From NCBI GenBank assembly GCA_021771115.1, contig JAETPP010000009.1:1-37789 (forward strand): DNA of 37,789 nt, given 5' to 3'. A model generated the notes under the pieces. The model worked only from the letters and a program-made list of their open reading frames with translations. It ran no database searches and had not been told where the DNA came from. This stretch comes from Bacillota bacterium. Its GTDB lineage: Bacteria > Bacillota > Clostridia > Oscillospirales > Acutalibacteraceae. Made by a program: the position numbers and the translations under genes. Positions 33,191 to 37,789 of this stretch are shown one piece after another. Each line of letters begins with the position of its first letter. The first letter of the stretch is position 1.

Positions 33191-33196
33191 CCTTAT

Positions 33197-33243
<47 letters not shown>

Positions 33244-33297
33244 TTTTTCCTCTGCATATGCAAGCAAGTTGGATAAAAATTGAATACAAGTTTCTGT

Positions 33298-33374
33298 GCG
33301 CCGGTAGCTCAGCTGGATAGAGCGCTTGACTACGGATCAAGAGGTCGGGAGTTCGAATCTTCTCCGGCGCGCCA
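33298..33374 (+). tRNA. tRNA-Arg (anticodon ACG)
   Basis: 77 nt with CCA encoded. The acceptor stem GCGCCGG / CCGGCGC, D stem GCTC / GAGC, anticodon stem CTTGA / TCAAG with loop CTACGGA (anticodon ACG, normally edited to ICG), and T arm GGGAG-TTCGAAT-CTTCT (two G-U pairs) all form. It reads CGN arginine codons. The integrase gene begins just downstream on the opposite strand, so its 3' half is the likely attachment site of the element to the right. Confidence 0.95.
33340..33374 (+). other. Probable attachment site (att) of the integrative element
   Basis: Tyrosine integrases commonly recombine in the 3' half of tRNA genes and restore it. Here the integrase faces the tRNA end from 150 bases away and GC content changes at this point. 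The matching right-end repeat is not inside the window, so the boundaries are inferred. Confidence 0.5.
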
Positions 33375-33493
33375 GATTTTCAGGTTTGATGCGGATTTTT
33401 TGCGTTTTTGCGAATAATCCGCATCTTTTTTGTTTCATCCGCGCTTTTCGCTCTAAAAATCCATTCGCACATAAATATACAGCTGATATACAA

Positions 33494-33515
33494 ACCGTCA
33501 AAAGCGACCGTCAAA
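33494..33515. other. Direct repeat near att, possible integrase arm site
   Basis: ACCGTCAAA occurs at 33494-33502 and 33507-33515, a 13-bp period, between the tRNA and the integrase stop. Arm-type sites of tyrosine integrases often look like this; binding is unproven. Confidence 0.35.
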
Positions 33516-33522
33516 CGGTAGT

Positions 33523-35049
33523 CTATCCTGCAAGCAACGCAGTTAAGACAGTCTCCTGCAAAGCGGGGCTTTGCTTGCACATCTTGAGAAGCAGGTCTTT
33601 GATTTCTGGGCTATCTTTCGCAAGAATAGCCAATGTGGAAACCACGTCTTTCTCTTGCGCATTTTCTGGTGAAAATATTGCACTCAAGCCTTGCTCCTTC
33701 CTCCCGGAATAAAATTTGTCCTGAAAAGTTTCTACTAACCGCATTCGGGCCGGGGTCGTAGCATGGGCGTAGATTTTCAACAATACGTCCAGAGACTTAT
33801 GACCAGTCACAGCCTGTACGCTTTTGAAGTCGCCATCACAGTGCTCCACATAGTAGGTAGCCGATGAATGCCGGATATCATGAAATCGAAGCTGTGGATA
33901 ATCCTCTCCCATCTCCTCTCGTTGTTTTTTCTGCCATTTTTGAAACCATTTCATCATCAGCTTAGGCTCTATGGGATTACCGTTTTCTAAGCAGATCAGC
34001 AGCCCATAATCATGATATTGATCACCGAGCTTTTCCTTGTTGCGCTGGATCTGCTTCAACCGAGCTTCTATCTCATTTTTGAGGGGCTCAGTTGTTAGCA
34101 GCTCCCTAACGCTGGAAGATGTCTTTGGTCTCTTCAGTACAAGACAAGAGCCTTTTTCTATCTCGATTGTTGGAAAGACAAACAACACATCTGATGTTTT
34201 TGCCATTTTCAGAGATTCTTTTGAAACTCTTTGCAGTATCTTTGTGATGTGGATGCGGCTATTCTTAAGATCCAGCTCCTCCAAAGAGATTCCGACCGTT
34301 TCTCCGTTTCTGAGGGCGCCTACATATGCCAAATGTATGGCAAGCCGCAGCAGTGGTTGATCCGGCATACTGGCCAGTGCTTTTTTCATCAGCACATCAT
34401 CCCATATCTTGAATTGAATATCTTCGTTGCGTGGGGGAATGTATTCCGGTAACGGATCCTCCGTAATGAGGTTTCTTCGGAGCGCCAGCTTAAAAATCCC
34501 TCCTAAAAGCAGAGCTACATCATGAATAGTCGTGGGACCTAAACATTTACTCTCTTCATGCGGCTTTTCCATCTCTGCCTCAGATAGCAAACATATACCG
34601 CCTTTATATGCGCCTTTAGGTGTATGCTGCAGGGTTTCATAGAGCTCACGAATGTCTCCCTCAGTAACTGATTGAATAGTCTTTTCGCCCAGATGAGGCT
34701 TCACATGATTGGTAAGAAGACCAACATTCATGGTATAGGTTTTCGGTTGCCAGCTCTTAGCCCGACTTGGAATAAACTCTTTCATCACAAAATCCCATAA
34801 CTTGATGGGACGGATCACAGAAAGGTGATTTATCTTGCCGTTTGACTGCCGTATTTCCTCTAACTGAATTTCCACCTTCTTTCTTCTTTCTTCTGCCGCA
34901 TCCAAATTATTGAACGGCTCCCACATCTGACGCTTACTTTTGTGTTCGTCATATGGGAGTCCATTCTTTTCGTAGAACTCCTTGCTTAAACCTTTCGGAA
35001 TAGTGTAACTAACGTAGTATGTTTGATAGCGATGAACAATAGAAGCCAT
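33523..35049 (-). CDS. int: Tyrosine-type site-specific integrase
   Basis: 508 aa, longer than the usual ~390. The catalytic set is R247 ('AYVGALRNGE'), H390 and R393 ('LRFHDIRHSSATYY'), H417 ('VTGHKS') and nucleophile Y427 ('LLKIYAHAT'). The N-terminus is an arm-binding-like region followed by a core-binding domain (~80-190). About 80 residues after the tyrosine form an unusual C-terminal extension ('ILAKDSPEIKDLLLKMCKQSPALQETVLTALLAG'). It starts directly after the TAA of the xis-like gene (TAAATG), so they are co-translated. It should integrate and, with Xis, excise the element at tRNA-Arg. Confidence 0.93.
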   Translation of the reverse strand: MASIVHRYQTYYVSYTIPKGLSKEFYEKNGLPYDEHKSKRQMWEPFNNLDAAEERRKKVEIQLEEIRQSNGKINHLSVIRPIKLWDFVMKEFIPSRAKSWQPKTYTMNVGLLTNHVKPHLGEKTIQSVTEGDIRELYETLQHTPKGAYKGGICLLSEAEMEKPHEESKCLGPTTIHDVALLLGGIFKLALRRNLITEDPLPEYIPPRNEDIQFKIWDDVLMKKALASMPDQPLLRLAIHLAYVGALRNGETVGISLEELDLKNSRIHITKILQRVSKESLKMAKTSDVLFVFPTIEIEKGSCLVLKRPKTSSSVRELLTTEPLKNEIEARLKQIQRNKEKLGDQYHDYGLLICLENGNPIEPKLMMKWFQKWQKKQREEMGEDYPQLRFHDIRHSSATYYVEHCDGDFKSVQAVTGHKSLDVLLKIYAHATTPARMRLVETFQDKFYSGRKEQGLSAIFSPENAQEKDVVSTLAILAKDSPEIKDLLLKMCKQSPALQETVLTALLAG

Positions 35050-35253
35050 TTATCCTACCTCCTGGTGATTCAGCCAGCAGTCAAAGGATTCCTTGTTAAT
35101 CCGAAGCAGTTTTGGTCCGCAGCGTTTGACAACAAATTCCTTTGTTGTACTGCAAAAGCTATACGCACTGCGTTCTGTCATGTTCAAGATTTCGGCTACT
35201 TCAGAAACCAGGTATACCTTTTTAGCTGGACTTTGGTGTTGAGTTTCTTTCAC
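35050..35253 (-). CDS. xis: Excisionase-like helix-turn-helix protein
   Basis: 67 aa from GTG 35253. It has a MerR/HTH_17-like fold: 'KVYLVSEVAEILNMTERSAYSFCSTTKEFVVKRCGPKLLRINKESFDCWL', as in small excisionases. An AAGGAGG site lies about ten bases upstream, and a second copy of GGAAAGGAGGC lies 18 bases further up. Its stop adjoins the integrase ATG. The position next to int supports a role in directionality of recombination. Confidence 0.8.
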   Translation of the reverse strand: MKETQHQSPAKKVYLVSEVAEILNMTERSAYSFCSTTKEFVVKRCGPKLLRINKESFDCWLNHQEVG

Positions 35254-35639
35254 CCAACTTGCGCCTCCTTTCCTTAAGATGCCTCCTTTCCTGTAGTCTT
35301 GATAAATGGCTGAGACTTAGCAAAATTATTATACACCACAATCTGGCAGCATCCCATTCAAAAAATAAAAAAAGTTGTTCCATTCTGTAACAATCTGCCG
35401 GCTCGCTTCCTGCAGCCGCATTCGGTCCTGCGTTTTCTCCCTTGCCTCGCTCAGCAGATGCGTCATGGCAAAGGCAGGGGTATTCCTTCCGGCAGATCGC
35501 TATGCTGTTTTCAAGGTTCAATGAAAAGTGGGTTTTCCTGCCTTCTGCTATATAAAGAGCGGCAGTGTGCCAGAATTAGTGCAAGTGAATTTCAAGAATC
35601 GTTCGTCAGAACATGGCAAAAGAGCTAACAAAAAGACAG

Positions 35640-35674
35640 GAAACCAGAGGAAGACTTTTCTTCCCTCTGGTTTC
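35640..35674 (-). terminator. Second hairpin downstream of agrD
   Basis: An 11-bp stem GAAACCAGAGG / CCTCTGGTTTC with extra inner pairing AAG / CTT. On the minus strand it is followed by CTGTCTTTTTG, a fair terminator. Confidence 0.6.
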
Positions 35675-35756
35675 TTGGTAAAAGATTGTGAATTCTTTAC
35701 TCTGGCTCATGAGATTCCCCTATAACAGGAACAAACACATTGACGCAAAGCGAGGA

Positions 35757-35829: not shown

Positions 35830-35949
35830 TTACCGTATCAAATTCTTCGGAAGGTTGGGTTCATAACCCATTCCGTTAGAAGCAGCTCCGGCTCCAAAGT
35901 TAGCAACCATTTCAATCAAAGAGGCCATGATATCCCAAAAGGTCTTCAT
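35830..35949 (-). CDS. agrD: AgrD-like cyclic peptide pheromone precursor, cysteine-free
   Basis: 39 aa. An amphipathic N-terminal helix (MKTFWDIMASLIEMVANF, residues 1-18) is followed by 'GAGAASNGMGY' and the charged-proline tail 'EPNLPKNLIR'. This is the AgrD plan: leader helix, ring-forming residue plus about four residues, then a tail like E-P-x-x-P-K-x-L. The ring residue is normally Cys; here Ser24 is the only candidate, implying a lactone. The precise C-terminal cut (after Gly28 or Tyr29) cannot be told. The start ATG 35949 lies eight bases after AAGGAG, which is made of the last codons of agrB. Too short for ordinary ORF calling. Confidence 0.75.
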   Translation of the reverse strand: MKTFWDIMASLIEMVANFGAGAASNGMGYEPNLPKNLIR

Positions 35950-35954
35950 TCATA

Positions 35955-36530
35955 TCACTCCTTTTTTCTTAATTTTTCAAATAGCATTAGACTGGCTACA
36001 GAAAATAGAGAGGCTGAACTTATTGATAAAATTGCGCGGTCTAGTGTGAAGACGTAGCAGAGGGTAATTACGATTGACTCGAACAGCGTAAGCTTCCGGG
36101 CAATCACTTTGTTTTTGCTGTAAGTTTTTTCTGAAAGGGGATGTTTATCATTGCGGATTGGAGAAAAAGCAAAAATGACAAAATCAGATAGCGCTAATAG
36201 CAAGAACCCGCAGACGGAAGGAACTTTAAGGAGAAGACAGCTTATGAGAAATGCCACAAAGTAACTCAAATTGCTCAATATGAAGCATCGTAAATATGTT
36301 GAAGCATGGAATCCGCCGGAAAAAAGCCTTATGCTAATGAAAATCAGTAAAAAGATAAACCCGGAGAAAAAGTGCCCGCTAAGCCCGGAAATTAATATGA
36401 TTGATAATACCCCAAGGAAGGTTGATAGGAACAACTCGCTTCCATAGACATATATGTCTCTTTGGTCAGGGTCAATATGGCAGTGACCAATAATGTTATT
36501 TGCAAAATGGAATGCGATGGAATAAAACAT
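35955..36530 (-). CDS. agrB: AgrB-like accessory gene regulator, pheromone-processing membrane protease
   Basis: 191 aa. The active-site pattern H-x6-C is present as H75 and C82 in 'IRLFSGGFHASTYLRCFILSN', exactly the AgrB signature. About six hydrophobic segments follow family topology, and 'FSPIRNDKHPLS' is the conserved post-catalytic loop. AgrB cleaves the AgrD tail and closes the peptide ring. Its ATG follows AAGGAG, which is buried in a long hairpin (36532-36575). Its last codons (AAAAAGGAG) form the agrD ribosome-binding site. Confidence 0.9.
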   Translation of the reverse strand: MFYSIAFHFANNIIGHCHIDPDQRDIYVYGSELFLSTFLGVLSIILISGLSGHFFSGFIFLLIFISIRLFSGGFHASTYLRCFILSNLSYFVAFLISCLLLKVPSVCGFLLLALSDFVIFAFSPIRNDKHPLSEKTYSKNKVIARKLTLFESIVITLCYVFTLDRAILSISSASLFSVASLMLFEKLRKKE

Positions 36531-36531
36531 A

Positions 36532-36575
36532 AAACCAGCTCCTTTGTTCTCATTATAGAGACAAGGAGCTGGTTT
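36532..36575 (-). promoter_or_regulatory. Long hairpin sequestering the agrB ribosome-binding site
   Basis: Arms 36532-36544 and 36063-type partner 36563-36575 pair over 13 bp (AAACCAGCTCCTT / AAGGAGCTGGTTT), and five more pairs form with two single-base bulges around an ATTATA loop. On the minus strand the AAGGAG of agrB lies in the 5' arm-partner side, directly before TTTTATG. The tail TTTTATGTTTT also resembles a terminator, so the element may act at either level between agrC and agrB. Confidence 0.7.
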
Positions 36576-36604
36576 AAAAGATTTTTTGATTGAATTGTAT
36601 GAGT

Positions 36605-37783
36605 TTATGTATCAAGCAATTGAAAACAAAGAGAAACCGTTGATATGAACAAACCATCTTCAAACTCATATAAAAGTGAGCCGCTATTCTTTTCGGCGGT
36701 CTCTCGGATATTTTTGATGCCTAAGCCATGTGGGGTCTTGTTGTCCGTTTTTGTAGAGTGTAAATCCGGATTATCCAAGAGTGGATTTTCAGATACTGTG
36801 TTTTTAACGGTAAAGAATGCAAAGTTCTCTTTCTGCTTAATTGTAACGATCACTTTTTTCTCTGTGTCCGTACAAATTGCCCTACAGGCTTCCAGCGCAT
36901 TATCGATCTGGTTTGACAATATGCCGCAAATATCAACAGGGTCCAAAGAAGTTGGTAAATGAAAGTCCGCAGCAAACTCGAAAGTAATCCCGTCTTGTTC
37001 TGCTTCAGCCGCTTTACAATTGATGATGGCATCGATGATATCATTGCCGGAATGACACAGGGCAATCTCCCGGAAAGGAACGGCCAATAGGGAATTGATA
37101 TATTTCGATAATTCGATATAATTTTGATTTTCTGCAAGATGTTGAATCATTCTCAGGTGATGATTAAAATCGTGTTGCCTCTTTGCGCTTTCAATTTTGT
37201 CGGCATGGATTGCTTGATAGTTTTTAGCCATAAGCACATTTTCTGTTTGCAGCATTTTCTGGGTCTGCTTATCATGTTCCGACTTTGTCAGAGCAGAAAA
37301 AAGCACGAGAATAGCAGTAATAAAGCAGAGGATAAAGAACCACGATGATATGACCGCAATTTGCATGGTAACAAGATCCGGCGTAATGATCGTGTTATAC
37401 AAAAGCTGCATAACGACATAGGCTGCTACGCTAAACGAGCAGAGAATATATTGCAACTTTTTGGATAGAGAGTTAAGACGAGCCAGTTGCTTTCGTACCA
37501 GAAGATAGATGATAACGTCGCTTAGCTTATCAAAGAGCAAATAAACAGATCTCCTCGGCCCAAGTGCTGTGAATACTGTGAATATTTCGTTAGGTACTCC
37601 ATAGCAGAATCCAACGAAAACAACTAAAATGTAATCGATTGTTTGAATCACCAAATAAGTAAGAATACAGGAAGTAAGGCGAACTACTAAAGACCCTTCT
37701 GAAGTGATTTTTGAAGCAATAAAAACCACAAAGGACATGGTAAGGAGCGGCGTTAAAAATGAAAAGACGGAGATGCTGTTCAT
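36605..37783 (-). CDS. agrC: AgrC-like GHKL sensor histidine kinase
   Basis: 392 aa as seen; the 5' end may continue beyond the window because the frame is open to the edge and only six bases precede the ATG. Residues ~5-165 hold about six membrane segments. The phospho-accepting His is H204 in 'SAKRQHDFNHHLRMIQ'. The GHKL ATP-binding domain has the N box 'LSNQIDNALEACRAI' and the G box 'HGLGIKNIRETAEKNSGSL'. This is the peptide-pheromone receptor kinase family (AgrC/HATPase_c_5). It sits upstream of agrB and agrD on the same strand; its partner response regulator is not in the window. Confidence 0.88.
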   Translation of the reverse strand: MNSISVFSFLTPLLTMSFVVFIASKITSEGSLVVRLTSCILTYLVIQTIDYILVVFVGFCYGVPNEIFTVFTALGPRRSVYLLFDKLSDVIIYLLVRKQLARLNSLSKKLQYILCSFSVAAYVVMQLLYNTIITPDLVTMQIAVISSWFFILCFITAILVLFSALTKSEHDKQTQKMLQTENVLMAKNYQAIHADKIESAKRQHDFNHHLRMIQHLAENQNYIELSKYINSLLAVPFREIALCHSGNDIIDAIINCKAAEAEQDGITFEFAADFHLPTSLDPVDICGILSNQIDNALEACRAICTDTEKKVIVTIKQKENFAFFTVKNTVSENPLLDNPDLHSTKTDNKTPHGLGIKNIRETAEKNSGSLLYEFEDGLFISTVSLCFQLLDT

Positions 37784-37789
37784 GGCAAC

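Follow-up and report, generated by a model that had tools for sequence, protein, structure and literature searches.

In some cases the cysteine of AgrD is replaced by serine (PMC4916163; here and below, statements attributed to published papers refer to excerpts of them). Serine rings are listed for C. difficile Agr2, S. pseudintermedius and GBAP, the first two being five-residue rings (PMC12312760). agr genes are found in phage phiCDHM1, and agr3 is possibly mobile (PMC3901668). The window (the whole stretch of 37,789 nucleotides that was analysed) carries an agr cassette sharing features with each of these systems. C. difficile agrB2D2C2A2 (AIP NSA[SSWVA]) is, like the window's system, a four-gene clostridial agr with a five-residue serine ring, both features being predictions for the window; the ring sequence and the residues ahead of the ring (NSA versus GAA) differ, and the excerpt does not describe the C. 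difficile locus as element-borne (PMC12312760). The S. pseudintermedius/intermedius AIP, RIPT[STGFF], has the serine lactone and five-residue ring predicted for the window, and Gly at position 3; it differs in its bulky FF ring end, an agr locus with RNAIII and a distant host (PMC12312760, PMC3673130). E. faecalis FsrD/GBAP, QN[SPNIFGQWM], is likewise a serine lactone made via an AgrB homologue, unlike the window in its nine-residue ring and in fsrD lying inside fsrB (PMC12312760, PMC3673130). The agr3 genes of phiCDHM1 and the NAP07/NAP08 agr3 locus show the arrangement agrC-agrB-agrD on mobile DNA or close to transposases and an integrase, as in the window; they differ in that the former are phage-borne, in that no AgrA was found and in the host, C. 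difficile (PMC3901668). Among the papers listed by full-text literature searches, none dealt with serine-type AgrD in the window's family or with agr circuits in conjugative elements; this argues only weakly that no such work exists. To the extent covered by these searches, three things are new: how broad the serine-only clade is, the ring pattern, and the presence on apparently conjugative elements of a cassette that includes a conserved uncharacterised gene.

The cassette at 35830-37783, with AgrB, an AgrC-type kinase and a 39-aa AgrD, is confirmed as real. The minus-strand order in the window is agrC (running to the contig end), agrB, agrD, a gene for a small HTH_17 protein and a tyrosine integrase gene; a tRNA-Arg gene lies on the plus strand. 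agrB (35955-36530, minus strand) encodes a membrane peptidase/cyclase matching PF04647 (114.5 bits for a cut-off of 23; E 5e-33). Its H75 and C82, already singled out in the preliminary description and which we take to be the catalytic pair, are invariant in all 16 aligned AgrBs. agrD (35830-35949, minus strand) begins 5 bases past the agrB stop, with AAGGAG 8 bases ahead of its ATG. Its product exceeds the curated TIGR04223 cut-off (27.2 bits versus 19) and, as first described, has no Cys and carries Ser24 at the ring position, 5 residues ahead of YEP; homologues have Ser at the same place. Leader, ring residue and P-x-x-P tail match the layout of the AgrD family (33 other distinct peptides); in ungapped comparison with these, the tail YEPNLPKNLIR has the P-x-x-P and little charge. 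A chance ORF is rejected on the curated model match and the conservation. The window genome (87.9% complete, 417 contigs, bin rated 5.6% contaminated) contains a single AgrD match (TIGR04223) and a single AgrB match. The possibility, raised earlier, of another AgrD, with Cys, elsewhere is rejected, as the 87.9% complete genome has just the one AgrD match. For AgrB, tblastn gave no match in phage and plasmid collections. Plasmid DNA likewise gave none, and viral contigs gave one pattern match and no relative. Among solved structures, one chance-level match was found for AgrB and none for AgrC.

agrC (36605-37789, minus strand) encodes a sensor kinase with a GHKL domain (PF14501, 6.4e-22), an H box (QHDFNHH), an N box and a G box. 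GHKL domain and H box lie inside the window; the sensor N-terminus lies beyond the contig end. The earlier identification of an AgrC kinase stands; the interval 36605-37783 is not the whole gene, because the reading frame continues unbroken to the final base of the contig and related AgrCs carry about 50 additional N-terminal residues in the alignment. The ATG at 37783 is not the true start. A LytTR search of the window genome gave three loci, one being contig C92 (L081). C92 starts with a 31-residue frame (MEMLYSSVEMIATCVENLIILL...) resembling an AgrC N-terminus, which scores above shuffles against 14 of 15 related AgrC N-termini (no more than 5 of 500 shuffles reached the same score). On the same strand, AgrA is encoded at 99-815 (receiver and LytTR domains, both over cut-off), followed by a gene (821-1345) for an uncharacterised conserved 174-aa protein. 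T4SS genes lie in the opposite direction: lysozyme/M23 protein, TraG/VirB4-like ATPase, VirD4-type coupling protein. C92 probably holds the N-terminus of the window AgrC together with AgrA, the conserved gene and the T4SS genes. This link is drawn from complementary gene pieces; the window contig (C12) and C92 show no overlap and, judged from relatives, about 20 AgrC residues are missing between them.

Every other genus locus whose AgrD is GAG-type (10/10) has the order conserved gene-AgrA-AgrC-AgrB(-AgrD), AgrC being irregular in one and the start of the conserved gene in another. The gene ahead of agrA (homologues in L044-L057) encodes a product of about 170 aa, found in 12 aligned loci. This product has no Pfam match (one protein) and no NCBIfam match over cut-off (two proteins). 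Its AlphaFold model is confident (mean pLDDT 87.8) and gave no PDB fold match at E <= 0.001.

The mechanism of AgrB has been worked out in S. aureus and is the basis for the lactone steps proposed here. AgrB would cut the 39-aa AgrD after Gly28 (or Tyr29), the peptide being held as a thioester on Cys82; Ser24 would attack this thioester, giving the lactone ring S-N-G-M-G. The trimmed peptide would be exported, then sensed by AgrC, which would phosphorylate the LytTR regulator AgrA encoded upstream. On sequence grounds, a module making an S-N-G-M-G lactone sensed by AgrC/AgrA is the most likely reading.

The predicted ring is S24-N-G-M-G28, followed by the tail YEPNLP. In the window's AgrB group (34 distinct peptides), the ring Ser is present in 34/34, with nearly invariant flanks (GAG and YxPxxP). 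Variation is greatest at ring positions 2 and 4 (3.4 and 3.3 bits). Gly occupies position 3 in 22 peptides, and 30 have S, G, A or C at position 5 (L069, ring SIWNS, counted one residue off). A fixed Ser with fixed flanks and variable positions 2 and 4 is as expected of a signal with conserved processing. The predicted ring pattern of the family is S-x-G-x-small; the glycine-rich ring, initially regarded as unusual, is a trait of the family. The lactone chemistry and the ring size are predictions. Taking the Tyr as the anchor gives a five-residue ring. The same spacing, between Cys and tail, is seen in 12 of the 20 Cys-type peptides sampled from the family; in the other 8, Cys is one place nearer the tail. 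Both this spacing and the C. perfringens ring, listed as five residues ([CLWFT], PMC12312760), argue against a six-residue ring, S-N-G-M-G-Y, cut after the conserved Tyr. Such a ring is considered unlikely; it would agree with the Tyr directly following the five ring residues in 33 of the 34 peptides and with the six-residue ring in print for C. acetobutylicum. It enters into consideration because the small ring ends (G/S/A/C) are unlike the AIPs listed in PMC12312760, which mostly finish in bulkier residues. In L143, two AgrD-like peptides occur in tandem after one agrB, with rings SEWDV and SEWNA, which differ in the last two residues.

A homologous peptide occurs in 10 of 60 genomes, the window's own included, with Ser at the ring place in all 11 other peptides. 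Conservation of the small ORF, which the preliminary description had left to be checked, is found: homologous Ser peptides adjoin agrB in relatives. In the genus, each of the 17 AgrB matches, spread over 10 of 29 genomes, adjoins a peptide whose ring place holds Ser (17/17): 11 with a GAG leader (the window's type), 1 GASSTS, 4 NxxSS (one of them, L077, beside a partial AgrB) and 1 atypical (L062). In 200 genomes of the window's family, the AgrD model gave 40 matches in 32 genomes; the 38 kept comprise 18 Ser and 20 Cys peptides, L030 and L184, with Ser at the ring place too and Cys one place nearer the tail, being counted as Cys by choice. Three of the 38, two from G171 and one from G106, showed no AgrB in the stretch examined. 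The two dropped are G214 (under cut-off, low-complexity frame) and G142, whose match contains a stop. Each carries Cys at the ring place, and including them brings the tally to 18 Ser and 22 Cys among 40.

In named genomes, the best 80 of 144 AgrB relatives, which lean to the window's clade, include 72 with an adjacent AgrD, and all 72 carry Ser, five residues ahead of a [Y/H/..][Q/E] tail; no adjacent AgrD was identified at the other 8. The AgrD search pattern let any residue stand at the ring place; where a peptide could also be read in a register shifted by three residues, the register before [Y/H]QP was chosen. At 7 of the 72 loci (L114, L125, L132, L147, L172, L175, L178), Cys directly follows the Ser, so that the nucleophile is ambiguous there. 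L172 carries a second AgrB, paired with a Cys AgrD. Hosts of the named-genome AgrB relatives include Oscillospiraceae, Lachnospiraceae and Ruminococcus. The genus, family and named-genome counts are not independent since many loci come from the same genomes. In a quick-method AgrB tree of 111 rows, the window's group (38 rows, SH-aLRT 99) has 37 Ser, 0 Cys and 1 unknown; L069, L140 and L182, which lacked a regex match, were labelled Ser by reading. Ser and Cys interchange at least 7 times over the tree.

Judged from these peptides, Ser is the rule in the window's genus and AgrB clade, and a cysteine-free AgrD is no rarity, contrary to the first impression. Serine-ring AgrDs appear as a few exceptions in reviews (PMC12312760, PMC4916163), whereas they are the rule in this large AgrB clade of gut Clostridia; if the lactones are made, much gut peptide signalling uses a little-studied chemistry. 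A decayed or linear AgrD, in a circuit that is dead or uses a different signal, would fit the lack of Cys and the incomplete AgrC in the window; it is very improbable, given that Ser and its flanks are kept across dozens of diverged loci, that it is the contig end, and no visible mutation, that truncates AgrC, and that the 87.9% complete genome gave no other AgrD.

The association of the serine-type agr module with an element, as first described, is borne out by the genes alongside it. The tyrosine integrase gene (33523-35049, minus strand; PF00589, 1.8e-16) is next to the gene for the small HTH_17 protein, excisionase-like by position (xis, 35050-35253, minus strand; HTH_17 E 0.00097, below the family cut-off). 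tRNA-Arg(acg) (33298-33374, plus strand; ARAGORN) is the probable integration site. G016, G009 and G007 have the same flank with an apparently single tRNA-Arg (overlapping BLAST matches). A truncated 5′ half of tRNA-Arg (33196-33244) lies just upstream of the intact one, in the window as in congener G015. An integrative conjugative element would have an integrase, a T4SS with a coupling protein and two ends; an integrase is encoded in the window, and VirB4-like and VirD4 proteins are encoded on C92. A search for the second end gave none, the tRNA 3′ end having one match in the genome.

Recombinase, ParB or T4SS matches were found near the cassette in 9 of 11 genus loci (the window counted with C92), and ParB in 5 of 11; the two others are G013 (5.5-kb contig, M23 match alone) and G015 (none). 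In the control, 10 evenly spaced 40-kb segments, all from G022, recombinase or T4SS matches turned up in 4/10 and ParB in 0/10. The stretches examined around the genus loci ranged from 5.5 to 40 kb, and the contrast is biased in favour because the tested loci themselves supplied some of the queries (serine recombinase, G010; ParB and second integrase, G022; sigma-like, G005). Such elements are common in these genomes anyway.

The int-xis-tRNA-Arg module (33298-35691) is 91% identical over 2365 bases to L226 17639-20000 in G015, where it closes a prophage-like region (tail and lysin genes, ORFs judged by eye); the element type is for this reason not certain. The identity ends at 35691, between xis and agrD, just past a hairpin (35649-35664) that is not above chance (2 terminator-like sites found versus 2.3 in shuffles). 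This end, in a bin fragmented into 417 contigs, would also be expected if the agr genes and the integrase had been joined by an assembly or binning error, which is improbable: int, xis and agr run in the same direction on one contig, and related cassettes adjoin other recombinases. The shared module points to module exchange, a junction error being less likely.

The reading adopted, with good confidence, is that an integrative and probably conjugative element carries an agr-type autoinducing-peptide circuit; the regulatory targets considered here are putative throughout. Control of the element's transfer is a plausible candidate role, and a cassette located on an element makes it possible to test directly whether agr signals govern how mobile DNA spreads. 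The circuit may instead be cargo acting on the host cell, not on the element, a reading that falls only slightly short of an even chance. Clostridial agr systems regulate host traits (sporulation, motility, virulence; PMC12312760), and the repeat search found no AgrA site at the cassette promoter: among 12 regions upstream of the cassette compared with shuffles, using a LytTR consensus, AgrA-type direct repeats fell below 0.05 in one (G031), C92 giving 0.095. The mobility genes at 9 of the 11 genus loci argue moderately against cargo, the queries being partly from those loci and the control at 4/10. The broadest proposal, tentative and rather doubtful, is a family of conjugative elements of the gut (Acutalibacter/Neglectibacter relatives) with its own serine-lactone pheromone, which would count carriers and time excision and transfer; the ring residues would have diversified so that each element mainly hears its own kind, and the gene ahead of agrA would be part of the switch.

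In G022, two loci (L067 and L075, at about 2.137 and 2.193 Mb of contig C1) have the same AgrD and AgrBs identical at just 72 of 197 positions, and one of the two AgrCs lies in two frames; this combination suggests that recombination has taken place inside the cassette. At the first G022 locus, a ParA-like start precedes the uncharacterised gene in frame.
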